Source: a bacterium (lineage in GTDB: Bacteria > UBP18 > UBA7526). From it: a DNA stretch of 18,188 bases. The DNA lies in NCBI GenBank assembly GCA_030619985.1, contig JAUXAI010000018.1:1-18188 (forward strand), in the 5' to 3' direction. The notes below the pieces were generated by a model. It was not told where the DNA came from. It did not search any database and saw only the letters and a program-made list of their open reading frames with translations. Shown here piece after piece: positions 754 to 14,569 of the stretch. Positions within the stretch are counted from its first letter, which is position 1; every line of letters starts with the position of its first letter. Position numbers and translations under genes: made by a program.

Positions 754-928
754 ACGCAGATTAACGCAGATCAAAACGCAGATGATCGCAGATAGTTTAG
801 TTCGGAGTTAGGAGTTCGGAGTTGGGAGTCTCCGAACACCGAACTCAAGGCCGAAGGCCGTGCTCTGAACTGCTGAATCAGCGGCAATCTGCGCGCTGTA
901 TCAGCGGTCATCAGCGTATAAAAGGAGG
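754..928 (+). repeat. Composite repeat array between ilvN and ilvC
   Basis: The array begins at the ilvN stop with four ACGCAGAT/TCGCAGAT units at roughly 10-nt spacing. A heptamer array follows at 799-826 (AGTTCGG, AGTTAGG, AGTTCGG, AGTTGGG), and then two inverted copies of the heptamer (CCGAACACCGAACT, 832-845). A small hairpin GGCC-GAA-GGCC sits at 849-859, and ATCAGCG units follow. The last 38 nt (891-928) match 6802-6839 with one mismatch and include the AAGGAGG SD of ilvC. Confidence 0.85.
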
Positions 929-3562: not shown

Positions 3563-3649
3563 ACAGTAACCAGCGAACAGTAACCAGTAAAAAGTGAGAG
3601 AAAATAAGTCACAGGCTACAAGCTGCAAGCTACAGGCTACAGGCTTCAG
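3563..3649 (+). repeat. Tandem 14-mer and heptamer arrays after leuA
   Basis: The leuA-3747 spacer contains two copies of a 14-nt unit (ACAGTAACCAGCGA and ACAGTAACCAGTAA, 3563-3590). It then holds five consecutive 7-nt units at 3612-3646: CAGGCTA, CAAGCTG, CAAGCTA, CAGGCTA, CAGGCTT. The same heptamer family occurs inside the truA coding region (13831-13858). A small GC-rich fold (3668-3688) and AT-rich sequence fill the rest up to 3746. I see no convincing promoter or terminator. Confidence 0.85.
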
Positions 3650-5304: not shown

Positions 5305-5396
5305 CAGAATACCTTATTTTCGTATTCTCTTGTTTTCGTATTCTCATATTTTCTTATTCACTTATTTACTTATCAACTTATTAACTTGTCAACTGG
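5305..5396 (+). repeat. Octamer array upstream of leuC
   Basis: Two CGTATTCTC units (near 5321 and 5337) precede five consecutive 8-nt units at 5353-5392: CTTATTCA, CTTATTTA, CTTATCAA, CTTATTAA, CTTGTCAA. The array ends in CTGG just before the leuC SD. It happens to be open in the leuC frame, which makes a spurious N-terminal extension appear. Confidence 0.85.
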
Positions 5397-5416: not shown

Positions 5417-6715
5417 GTGGGAATGACCATTACTGAGAAGATATTAGCTGCTCATACCAATCGTAAGAGGGTAGAGCCAGGGGAGTTCATTGAGGCCAAG
5501 GTAGATATTGCTTTAGGGAATGATATCACCGCCCCCCTGGCTATAGAGGAGTTTAGAAAGTCCGGGGTAAAGAAGGTCTTTGACAGAAGCAAAGTCGTCT
5601 TAGTTCCCGATCACTTCACTCCCAATAAGGATGCTCCTTCTGCCCAACAAGCGAAGATCTTAAGGGACTTTGCTAAAGAACAGAATCTTAAATATTACTT
5701 TGATGTGGGGAGGATGGGGATAGAGCATGCTCTCCTTCCTGAACAGGGAATTGTAGGGCCCGGGGATTTAATCATTGGTGCAGATAGTCATACCTGTACC
5801 TATGGTGCTTTGGGTGCTTTTTCTGCTGGCGTGGGTTCGACAGACTTAGCAGCAGTAATGATTACTGGGAAACTCTGGTTCAAGGTTCCAGAGACAATAA
5901 GATTCATCTATCGTGGAAAACTAAACAAATGGGTGAGTGGGAAGGACCTCATCCTCTACACTATTGGTGATATTGGGGTAGATGGCGCCCTATATAAAAC
6001 CATGGAATTTACCGGAGAGGCGGTCTCCAGCCTTTCCATGGATTCTAGATTCAGTATGTGTAATATGGCCATCGAGGCCGGAGCAAAGTCAGGAATTATT
6101 GCTCCCGACAAAATCACTCTCGAATATGCAAAGAAACACTGTTCACTGTTTCAGCCGAAGGCTGATCCGCCTCTGGCGGACACTGTTCACTGTTCACTGC
6201 CAACGAGCGATCCCGATGCCAATTATTGTGAAATAAGAGAATACGACTGCTCCAAGATCGAACCTCAGGTTGCCTTTCCCCATTTGCCCTCAAATACCAA
6301 ACCAGTGAGTGAAGTAGGAAATATCCCTTTAGATCAGGTAGTCATCGGCTCCTGCACCAATGGAAGGATGGAGGATTTGAGAATTGCGGCCAAAGTTTTG
6401 AAGGGAAGGAAAATCCCCTCTTATATAAGACTCATCATCATTCCTGCTACACAGAATATCTATCTTCAGGCAGTAAAGGAAGGATTGACCGAGATATTCT
6501 TAGAGGCAGGAGGGGTGGTTTCTACCCCTACCTGTGGTCCCTGTCTCGGTGGCCATATGGGGGTCTTAGCAGAAGGGGAAAAGGCCCTAGCAACCACAAA
6601 CAGGAACTTTAAAGGCCGTATGGGCCATCCTAAATCAGAGGTCTACCTTTCTAATCCGGCAGTGGCTGCAGCCAGCGCCATCAAAGGAAGGATTGCCCAT
6701 CCCACAGAAATCTAA
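5417..6715 (+). CDS. leuC: 3-isopropylmalate dehydratase large subunit
   Basis: This 432-residue aconitase-family subunit isomerises 2- to 3-isopropylmalate with LeuD, using a [4Fe-4S] cluster. The cluster ligands are C313 (GSCTNG) and C373 and C376 (TCGPCLGG). The substrate region [20 protein letters not shown] is intact. The size fits the short archaeal/HacA-like LeuC type. I place the start at GTG 5417: GGAG at 5407-5410 lies 6 nt away, and [13 protein letters not shown] fits the family start. The upstream ATG 5288 would add 43 residues encoded by repeat DNA. Residues 241-262 are a repeat-encoded insertion before the conserved SDPDANY segment, probably in a surface loop. leuD follows only after two small genes, an unusual separation. 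Confidence 0.95.
6137..6200 (+). repeat. Heptamer and hairpin insertion inside leuC
   Basis: Two CACTGTT heptamers at 6137-6150 and two and a half at 6181-6199 flank two perfect hairpins: CAGCC-GAA-GGCTG (6152-6164) and TCCGCC-TCT-GGCGGA (6166-6180). The block stays in frame and encodes about 22 residues of LeuC where related proteins, as I recall them, have a shorter linker. Confidence 0.8.
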
Positions 6716-9565: not shown

Positions 9566-10617
9566 TGAGAGAGTATAAGACTGCTGTGGTCGGGGCAACG
9601 GGTGCTGTTGGCCAAGAGATGATTAAGATATTGGAAGAGAGGGATTTCCCTATTAAAGAGATCAAACTCCTGGCCTCTAAAAGATCAGCAGGAAAGAGAT
9701 TAAAGTTTAAAGGCAGAGAGGTAATTGTTGAGGAATTGACCCCTGATTCTTTTAAGGATGTAGAAATTACTCTATTCAGCATTGGAGCAGAGATCAGCAA
9801 GAAATTTGCTCCCATTGCTGTTAAAGCAAAGACAGTGGTCGTAGACAATAGTAGCGCCTGGAGGATGGACCCCAAGGTTCCCTTAGTTATTCCGGAAGTA
9901 AATCCTCGTGCCGTAGAGAAACATAAGGGTATCATCGCCAATCCCAACTGCTCTACTATCCAGCTAGTAGTAGTTCTAAAGCCCTTGCACGATGCTGCCA
10001 AGATTAAAAGGGTAGTAGTTTCTACCTATCAGTCTGTCTCTGGCTGGGGAAGAGAGGCTATGGAGCAACTCCATCAAGAAACAGTTAATCAGTTAGCCAG
10101 TTGGCCAGTTAGCCAGTCTAAAACTGGTAAACCGGTAAACAGGAAAACCGGCAAACGAGTTTTACCTTACCAGATCGCTTTTAATGTAATACCCCAGATA
10201 GATGACTTCATTGGGAGCGGTTATACCAAGGAAGAGATGAAGATGGTGAATGAAACCAGAAAGATAATGGAGGATGATTCTATCCAGATAACCGCCACCT
10301 GCGTGAGGGTCCCGGTCTATATCGGCCATTCCGAGGCCATAAATATTGAGACAGAGAGGAAATTAACTGCCGAGGAAGCAAGGGAGATACTATCTAAGAC
10401 ACCTGGAGTAGTTGTTATTGATGATCCGAAAGAATCAAAGTATCCCATCCCTATTGATGCCGCAGGAAAGGACGAAACATTCGTGGGAAGGATAAGAGAG
10501 GATGAATCAATACCAAACGGCCTTAACCTCTGGGTGGTTTCGGATAACCTAAGGAAGGGAGCCGCTCTAAACACCATCGAGATCGCTGAACTTTTGATAG
10601 AAAAGAATCTACTCTAA
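9565..10617 (+). CDS. asd: Aspartate-semialdehyde dehydrogenase
   Basis: The 350-residue enzyme reduces aspartyl phosphate to aspartate semialdehyde with NADPH, feeding lysine, threonine, methionine and isoleucine synthesis. It has the Rossmann motif VVGATGAVGQEM near the start, the catalytic C129 in NPNCSTIQL, STYQSVSGWG, IAFNVIPQID, and the active-site H255 in VYIGHSEAINIE. ATG 9565 overlaps the upstream stop, with GGGAGA at 9553-9558. Residues about 174-199 (VNQLASWPV... to ...TGKRV) are encoded by an octamer repeat and related repeats in a loop that is usually shorter in the family, so the protein is slightly long. A terminator follows, closing the branched-chain/aspartate transcript. Confidence 0.95.
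   Translation: MREYKTAVVGATGAVGQEMIKILEERDFPIKEIKLLASKRSAGKRLKFKGREVIVEELTPDSFKDVEITLFSIGAEISKKFAPIAVKAKTVVVDNSSAWRMDPKVPLVIPEVNPRAVEKHKGIIANPNCSTIQLVVVLKPLHDAAKIKRVVVSTYQSVSGWGREAMEQLHQETVNQLASWPVSQSKTGKPVNRKTGKRVLPYQIAFNVIPQIDDFIGSGYTKEEMKMVNETRKIMEDDSIQITATCVRVPVYIGHSEAINIETERKLTAEEAREILSKTPGVVVIDDPKESKYPIPIDAAGKDETFVGRIREDESIPNGLNLWVVSDNLRKGAALNTIEIAELLIEKNLL
10084..10161 (+). repeat. Octamer repeat insertion inside asd
   Basis: Units CAGTTAGC, CAGTTGGC, CAGTTAGC and CAGT run from 10090 to 10117. They are followed by a hairpin-capable ACTGG (pairing with CCAGT) and by imperfect repeats of AAACYGGYAAAC to about 10156. The block is in frame and extends one loop of Asd. The reverse complement of the octamer (CTAACTGG-like) resembles the octamers ahead of leuC. 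Confidence 0.8.
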
Positions 10618-13765: not shown

Positions 13766-14569
13766 ATGCAGAATATAAGACTCATTATTGAATATGAAGG
13801 GACGAATTATAGAGGGTGGCAGAGACAGGACAGGCCTCAGGCTTCAGGCCGCAGGCTGCAAAAGAAAACCATACAGGGAGTTTTGGAGGAAACGCTAAGT
13901 AAGATTACTAAGGAGAGAATAAGGGTGATTGGGGCGGGGAGGACGGATTCTAAGGTCCATGCTCTGGGACAGGCGGCAAACTTCAGGACAAAGAGCAAGA
14001 TGACCCCAGAGGAATTTAGAAGAGCATTAAATAGCATGCTCCCTAAGGACATTGTCATTAAAAATGCTCAGCGAGTAAAAGAAAAATTTCACGCCCAGTT
14101 CGATGCTAAAAGTAAACACTATAGATATATTATCTATCAGGGCTCCACTCCTTCACCATTTCTAAAGGATTATGTCTTCTATATTCCATACAAACTTAAT
14201 CTCAAGGCCATGAGAGAAGGAGCGAAGTATTTAGTGGGTAAACACGATTTTTCCTCTTTTGAACTCTCAGGCTCAAGTGTCCGAAACCCAATTCGCACCA
14301 TCACAAAACTCTCCATAACTTCTTATAGAAGTTACCGATCACCGATCACCGTTCACCGATCACTTAACAGTAGATTTATCTTCATCGATTGCGTGGCCGA
14401 CGGCTTCCTCTACGGAATGGTGCGCTCCATTGTAGGAACCTTAATCGAGGTAGGAAGAGGAAAGATTAGTCCTTCTAAGATAAAAGAGATACTAAAGGCT
14501 CGCAATCGCAGATTGGCCGGCCCCACCGCCCCCGCCAAAGGCCTTTATCTCATAAAAGTGGGATATTAG
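13766..14569 (+). CDS. truA: tRNA pseudouridine(38-40) synthase
   Basis: The 267-residue enzyme makes pseudouridine at positions 38-40 of tRNA anticodon arms. The N-terminus LIIEYEGTNYRGWQRQ is standard. The catalytic aspartate is D61 in GAGRTDSKVHALGQ, and LVGKHDFSSF and ADGFLYGMVRSIVGTLIEVGRG are present. The protein carries two insertions. Residues 22-34 are encoded by four CAGGCYN heptamers, and residues about 185-202 by a palindrome plus four ACCGATC heptamers. The first shifts the catalytic aspartate to 61, against the low fifties I would expect without it. Both lie where other TruA proteins, as I recall, have short loops, so activity is likely retained. GAGG at 13754-13757 supports ATG 13766. 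Confidence 0.93.
   Translation: MQNIRLIIEYEGTNYRGWQRQDRPQASGRRLQKKTIQGVLEETLSKITKERIRVIGAGRTDSKVHALGQAANFRTKSKMTPEEFRRALNSMLPKDIVIKNAQRVKEKFHAQFDAKSKHYRYIIYQGSTPSPFLKDYVFYIPYKLNLKAMREGAKYLVGKHDFSSFELSGSSVRNPIRTITKLSITSYRSYRSPITVHRSLNSRFIFIDCVADGFLYGMVRSIVGTLIEVGRGKISPSKIKEILKARNRRLAGPTAPAKGLYLIKVGY
13831..13858 (+). repeat. Heptamer array inside the 5' part of truA
   Basis: Four consecutive 7-nt units (CAGGCCT, CAGGCTT, CAGGCCG, CAGGCTG) belong to the same family as the intergenic array at 3612-3646. They encode RPQASGRRL, between the GWQRQ and TIQGVLEE motifs of TruA. Confidence 0.85.
14317..14363 (+). repeat. Palindrome plus heptamer array inside the 3' part of truA
   Basis: A perfect hairpin AACTTC-TTATA-GAAGTT (14317-14333) abuts four 7-nt units: ACCGATC, ACCGATC, ACCGTTC, ACCGATC (14334-14361). 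The block is in frame and encodes the SYRSYRSPITVHRS stretch of TruA. Confidence 0.85.

Follow-up and report, generated by a model that had tools for sequence, protein, structure and literature searches.

Very small heptamer and octamer arrays inside truA and other bacterial genes, probably replacing one another between related species

In related bacterial species, the same place in a gene or spacer can hold tandem arrays of unrelated seven- or eight-base words, and the repetitive segment inside truA, the gene for tRNA pseudouridine synthase A, is one such array. With slightly better than even confidence, we regard this segment as a member of a genome-wide set of very small dispersed repeats, which are probably selfish, occupy permissive sites and replace each other. 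A preliminary description had noticed the truA array and a matching array in a spacer. Its observation is confirmed and is larger than reported, with dozens of families, dozens of host genes and unrelated families swapping at one site between species, and its interpretation is partly supported. Within the window, meaning the whole analysed stretch of 18,188 bases, a second truA array and an inverted octamer pair in asd (10079-10156) are added to what it had described.

The window is one complete contig of the 1.25-Mb genome of an uncultured bacterium, in 91 contigs, here called G000. We compared it with two congeners, G001 and G002, and with a sister genus, G003, which served as outgroup mainly via its truA contig. 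All genomes are draft assemblies in many contigs, and the data comprise roughly half of G000, together with 0.9 Mb from G002, 0.19 Mb from G001 and a small part of G003. The array detector and its thresholds were purpose-written scripts. The features of the window are collected in Table 1.

Table 1. Genes and repeat arrays located in the window
Feature	Position	Strand	Remarks
Spacer array AGTTCGG/AGTTAGG	799..829	+	Between ilvN-like and ilvC genes
Spacer array, CAGTAAC family	3564..3590	+	Neighbour of the CARGCTN spacer array
Spacer array CAGGCTA CAAGCTG CAAGCTA CAGGCTA CAGGCTT (CARGCTN x5)	3611..3649	+	Units 3612-3646; downstream of leuA
Long octamer array, TATTTTCG... drifting to AACTTATT/AACTTGTC	5315..5394	+	Upstream of the leuC ORF or in its unconserved 5' end
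Short CACTGTT array in leuC	6181..6199	+	Identical in G002
asd octamer array, AGTTAGCC family	10079..10117	+	First arm of inverted pair; G002 has a AAAGTGGG octamer array here
asd octamer array, AAACCGGT family	10121..10156	+	Second arm of inverted pair
truA (tRNA pseudouridine synthase A)	13766..14569	+	267 aa; Pfam PseudoU_synth_1; two arrays inside
truA array 1: CAGGCCT CAGGCTT CAGGCCG CAGGCTG CA (CARGCYN family)	13831..13860	+	Four full units, 13831-13858
truA array 2: ACCGATC x4.3	14334..14363	+	

The best solved relatives of the truA ORF are the TruA structures 1dj0, 2nqp and 1vs3, and the ORF is the only truA match in the genome. The two heptamer runs from which the preliminary description started, CAGGCYN x4 in truA and CARGCTN x5 in the spacer, both read as it had them. 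The first array lies between GWQRQ and the next conserved motif and adds 9 residues relative to E. coli TruA (1dj0), where about 10 had been claimed, and the catalytic Asp of GRTD is residue 61 when counted from the ATG, as had been said. The stretch with the second array is 14 residues longer than in 1dj0. It had also been claimed that an intergenic repeat family sits inside an essential-type gene without breaking it, and this agrees with a single-copy truA, a dN/dS of about 0.14 against a congener, and the lack of the segment in the TruAs of the sister genus and of distant bacteria. As a separate observation, the region around TruA residues 61-63 (window 13946-13954) reads GRTDSKVHA in G000, whereas the congeners and the other aligned TruAs have GRTD(A/S/T)GVHA; of all TruAs aligned, only that of G000 shows this G-to-K change close to the catalytic Asp.

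The idea that TruA needs the segment as a conserved functional feature retains hardly any probability. As this idea would have it, the frame is open and the gene evolves under purifying selection, but the alignment of TruA homologues contradicts conservation across distant TruAs, which the preliminary description had named as a possible refutation of its claim. Neither the sister-genus TruA nor the distant ones have the segment, and unrelated peptides are encoded in G000 and G002 compared with G001.

At the first truA site, G000 and G002 carry CAGGCYN units, G001 carries AAAGTCC units split by a GC-rich palindrome, and the aligned G003 gene has no array. The second site has ACCGATC in G000 and GCGATAT in G001 and G002, with only a remnant-like stretch in G003. 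The first site thus groups G000 with G002, the second groups G001 with G002, and any three-species tree therefore needs at least one array that was replaced or independently re-inserted in place. The argument for replacement in truA holds whichever species tree of G000, G001 and G002 applies; orthologue triples favour G000 with G002 in 18 of 33 genes, and a truA tree in which part of the insert columns was kept favours G001 with G002.

GC-rich palindromes of about 18-35 bp are found inside heptamer arrays of one species and are missing from the same array elsewhere, at the first truA site (L035) and at three further loci (L131:19769 compared with L089, L082:925 compared with L384, and L018:14166 compared with L411). 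They are a second type of small element that uses the arrays as landing sites.

Among the other arrays of the window, the long octamer array lies before the part of LeuC that aligns with the G002 protein. The site at 799-829 holds a small ORF instead in G002 and G001 (L099, L390), which is GxxExxY-type-like as judged by eye. Octamer arrays are sometimes paired in opposite orientation and then form a long imperfect hairpin, also within genes (window 10079-10156; L027:2790-2871; L074:2764-2861; L125:9400-9474). Such close inverted pairs are clear in examples like asd, and only a handful of neighbouring pairs qualify in an automatic count. A detector score of at least 13 is reached by six real 7/8-mer arrays of the window, compared with one array in 60 dinucleotide shuffles.

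The window is a small sample of a large population. In 610 kb of G000 we found 167 degenerate heptamer or octamer arrays. A strict cut-off applied to 390 kb of G000 left 76 (43 heptamer and 33 octamer arrays), compared with none in dinucleotide shuffles of the same 390 kb, and a looser cut-off gave 142 heptamer and 102 octamer arrays in 641 kb of G000 and a congener. Periods 7 and 8 dominate, periods 6, 9, 10 and 12 being rare, and the lengths have modes at 30-33 bp for heptamers and 34-37 bp for octamers, which is about 4.5 units for either period. The density is 23-27 arrays per 100 kb, compared with about 1 per 100 kb at the loci surrounding truA in distant genomes.

The CARGCYN word of truA represents one of dozens of families, others being GGTNNAC, AGTAACC, ACCGATC, AGTTCGG, TTTGGAC, GATGTGG, AAGGGTT, ATTTTGC, AAGTTRAY, AGTTNGCC and CTGATNAC. 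For CARGCYN x3 the genome has 12 overlapping matches at about six places, of which at least three are coding (truA, a FolC-like gene and the ORF L018:14971-15661). The preliminary description had named absence of the heptamer elsewhere in the genome as its second possible refutation, and it survives here as well. In a sample of 386 genomes, 5 of the 6 that belong to this family have CARGCTN x4, whereas the remaining 380 have none. Among the matches listed from about 85,000 species genomes, it is found in Pseudomonas, Halomonas, Alcanivorax, Omnitrophota, Planctomycetota, Hydrogenedentes and others, where the arrays are often longer and purer. Four loci from Omnitrophota, Syntrophaceae, Hydrogenedentes and Desulfuromonadales (L160, L152, L189, L212) show several degenerate heptamer arrays within a few kb, often of multiple families. 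CARGCTN x4 is also seen in 104 viral-contig stretches (L271-L350 and further), which may be phage or host DNA. Within the genus, AAAGTCC x3 forms about eight arrays in G001 compared with two each in G000 and G002, suggesting a modest lineage-specific burst of this word in G001.

At least 46 of the 167 arrays in the 610-kb sample lie within ORFs whose congener protein spans both sides. The host genes include a FolC-like Mur ligase with three different arrays, RibD, RibE (lumazine-binding), Lnt, RmlD, PurH, a PFOR subunit, WaaA, a large class I tRNA synthetase (IleRS by its zinc finger), TsaD, a CbiB-like protein, Asd and TruA, and in the congener G001 also LpxK, TrpE and DapF. The hosts in which arrays are swapped have dN/dS values of 0.08-0.20, indicating functioning genes under purifying selection.

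Comparison with a congener was possible for 66 arrays with tight orthologous flanks, spacers included, and 37 of these are the same array in both species. Where the array is not the same (29 cases), the place is taken by a 7/8-mer array of an unrelated family in 19 cases and is shorter by at least 20 bp or devoid of an array in 7. Random 33-bp segments handled likewise met a congener array in 2 of 368 cases. This suggests that new arrays hit or rewrite old ones more than other places. In 331 G000/G002 pairs of orthologous genes, the family is the same at 12 sites, and in 15 array comparisons two different families share a site, two sites being counted twice in the latter number as one array stands opposite an inverted pair; arrays present in one species only number 12 and 14. 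The junctions can be exact, as in the FolC-like gene, where GAAGTTAT-ACCGATC...CCG-TAAT stands opposite GAAGTTAA-ACGGTTC...CGG-TAAT, 33 nt against 33 nt.

Where an array is conserved, it is stable. The 37 conserved arrays are 92.5% identical between the species, compared with 90.6% for their flanks; 23 of them have no length change, and whole-unit multiples account for 2 of the 14 length changes (21 and 24). Orthologous arrays thus do not differ by whole units in the manner of phase variation, and their stability is unlike that of slipping repeats.

Ordinary slippage, in which a polymerase slips by 7 or 8 bases locally, arrays arise independently wherever they are tolerated and point mutation later degrades them, is an unlikely account. 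A heptamer excess in bacteria is established and is discussed together with a slippage hypothesis in PMC4679880 and PMC4692102, which also cite that heptamers outnumber other long simple repeats in many bacteria and that a polymerase-footprint model has been proposed. Slippage would also fit the unit-number change seen at a few sites (L028:6264) and the many arrays that share no unit order with others of their own family. However, the array lengths are narrowly distributed and not geometric, the length changes of conserved arrays are seldom whole units, the same families recur at many unrelated loci, and an unrelated array takes the place of the old one far more often than in the random controls. 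We consider it improbable, too, that insertions are tolerated only in a few highly permissive spacers and loops, where unrelated arrays land independently and are quickly lost again. Relatives do vary in length at the array sites, and at some swapped sites the total lengths are still a multiple of 3 apart. However, a changed site more often holds another array than none (19 to 7, and 15 array pairs to 12 in coding regions), and at least half of the permissive sites would need to be occupied at any given time although only a minority of genes bear arrays.

A single ancestral array that diverges in place by concerted turnover of its units, so that the "different families" are its descendants, has very little in its favour as a general account. 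A few pairs are in phase, namely AAAGTCC/AACTCCG in an amidohydrolase gene and AACTGGT/AACTGGCT, and since families were assigned through a similarity threshold, some swaps between related words such as AAAGTCC/AACTCCG could be divergence. Taken as a set, the swapped partners are no more similar than random pairs of arrays (mean best identity 0.543 vs 0.519, p ~0.14), which argues that most of them are not one drifted array and leaves concerted divergence unsupported for the whole set. We also observed that the amidohydrolase gene (L383:14180-15533 compared with L086:1881-3270) has two arrays, which consist of AAAGTCC at either site in G001 and of AACTCCG at either site in G002, approximately in phase; this looks like a joint change of the two sites.

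According to the reading that we favour, of small dispersed repeats replacing each other, the arrays would be micro-elements, selfish or neutral, whose copies reach new places. As their occupancy suggests, new arrays may preferentially land on, or rewrite, sites that already bear an array. Selection would tolerate them at length-tolerant protein loops when the net length keeps the reading frame. Once placed, they are inherited, diverging like the flanking DNA and mostly keeping their unit number. The exact unit order is common to unrelated loci for some arrays (35/35, 34/34, 33/33 and 29/29 bases), and array pairs sharing unit order at p<=0.05 are about twice as frequent as expected, which supports copying for a minority of arrays. 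By the unit register and unit-order permutation tests, most arrays of one family share no unit order beyond chance, so that new arrays may also arise by synthesis from a word, without a whole array being copied; copying of whole arrays as a general rule holds for a subset only. Stepwise drift, with each unit copied from its neighbour, predicts a similarity that falls with distance, but similarity at lag 2 is about that at lag 3.

Searches for an agent of movement were negative. The few clean pairs of occupied and empty sites show no target-site duplication, and a search of the flanks for a common motif returned array-like words only. Y1_Tnp gave no match in the genome itself and four relatives of its family, and RVT_1 (reverse transcriptase) none in the five genomes searched from the family, which are 75-93% complete; the controls were positive for both. 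It is possible, though unlikely, that arrays are rewritten in place by a cellular process that swaps the old array for about 4.5 units of the word currently active in the lineage, essential enzymes included, so that positions are inherited and sequence is exchanged. Such rewriting could proceed through break- or fork-induced iterative copying of a short template by a polymerase.

Tandem repeats are expected to gain and lose units, but here size and place are kept and the word is changed, in single-copy housekeeping genes under purifying selection. Ordinary stretching and shrinking of repeats does not explain the replacement of words between species. Should the replacement prove real, it would point to an undescribed route by which very small bacterial DNA elements spread or are rewritten. 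In the freely accessible literature we came across no account of an array giving way to an unrelated one at an orthologous site. The arrays also provide a natural experiment on which loops of enzymes tolerate foreign peptides, as the same loop of TruA, FolC, PurH, RibD or IleRS has different peptides in sister species. The occurrence of like heptamer words in Pseudomonas, Halomonas, Omnitrophota, Planctomycetota and others suggests that the question reaches beyond one lineage.

The TAACTGA direct repeats of Beggiatoaceae occur in 2-6 copies, are scattered over unrelated phyla and lie mainly upstream of start codons, with few in ORFs and those mostly at protein ends; heptamers different by one base were rarely repeated (MacGregor 2015, PMC4679880). 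They are heptamer direct repeats like ours, but one heptamer stands there against many degenerate families here. TAACTGA is not one of the family consensus sequences that were listed. The GGGNATC heptamer arrays of Xanthomonas and Nostoc form one G-rich family, and in two Xanthomonas species they take the same intergenic places, 83% being present in both, with variable length and sequence (Rehm 2015, PMC4692102). Their positions are conserved likewise, and the sections of that paper on these arrays describe no swap by unrelated families. The REP/BIME repeats moved by RAYT (Y1) transposases are, like the present arrays, short, dispersed, non-autonomous and present in many copies, whereas our arrays are not palindromic, are tandem inside and come from a genome in which no Y1_Tnp gene was found.

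The short tandemly repeated repetitive (STRR) heptamers of heterocystous cyanobacteria are tandem, degenerate and dispersed over the genome, and are also reported inside rnpB. The preliminary description had been reminded of them, and the likeness stands for the unit length and the dispersed arrangement; it is a likeness of form. The present arrays differ in that they include 8-mers beside 7-mers, fall into dozens of families, have about 4.5 units, lie in many cases in housekeeping protein genes and show replacement of families at orthologous sites. Rickettsia palindromic elements are palindromes of over 100 bp (100-150 bp) that lie in frame inside housekeeping genes. The parallel once drawn to them applies insofar as our arrays are in frame in such genes and absent from relatives; it fails for their structure, as the arrays are non-palindromic tandem repeats of 30-37 bp, tandem heptamers of some 30 bp in the case of truA. 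The nearest analogues are the STRRs for unit length and the Rickettsia palindromic elements for in-frame presence, neither of which seems to fit as a family.
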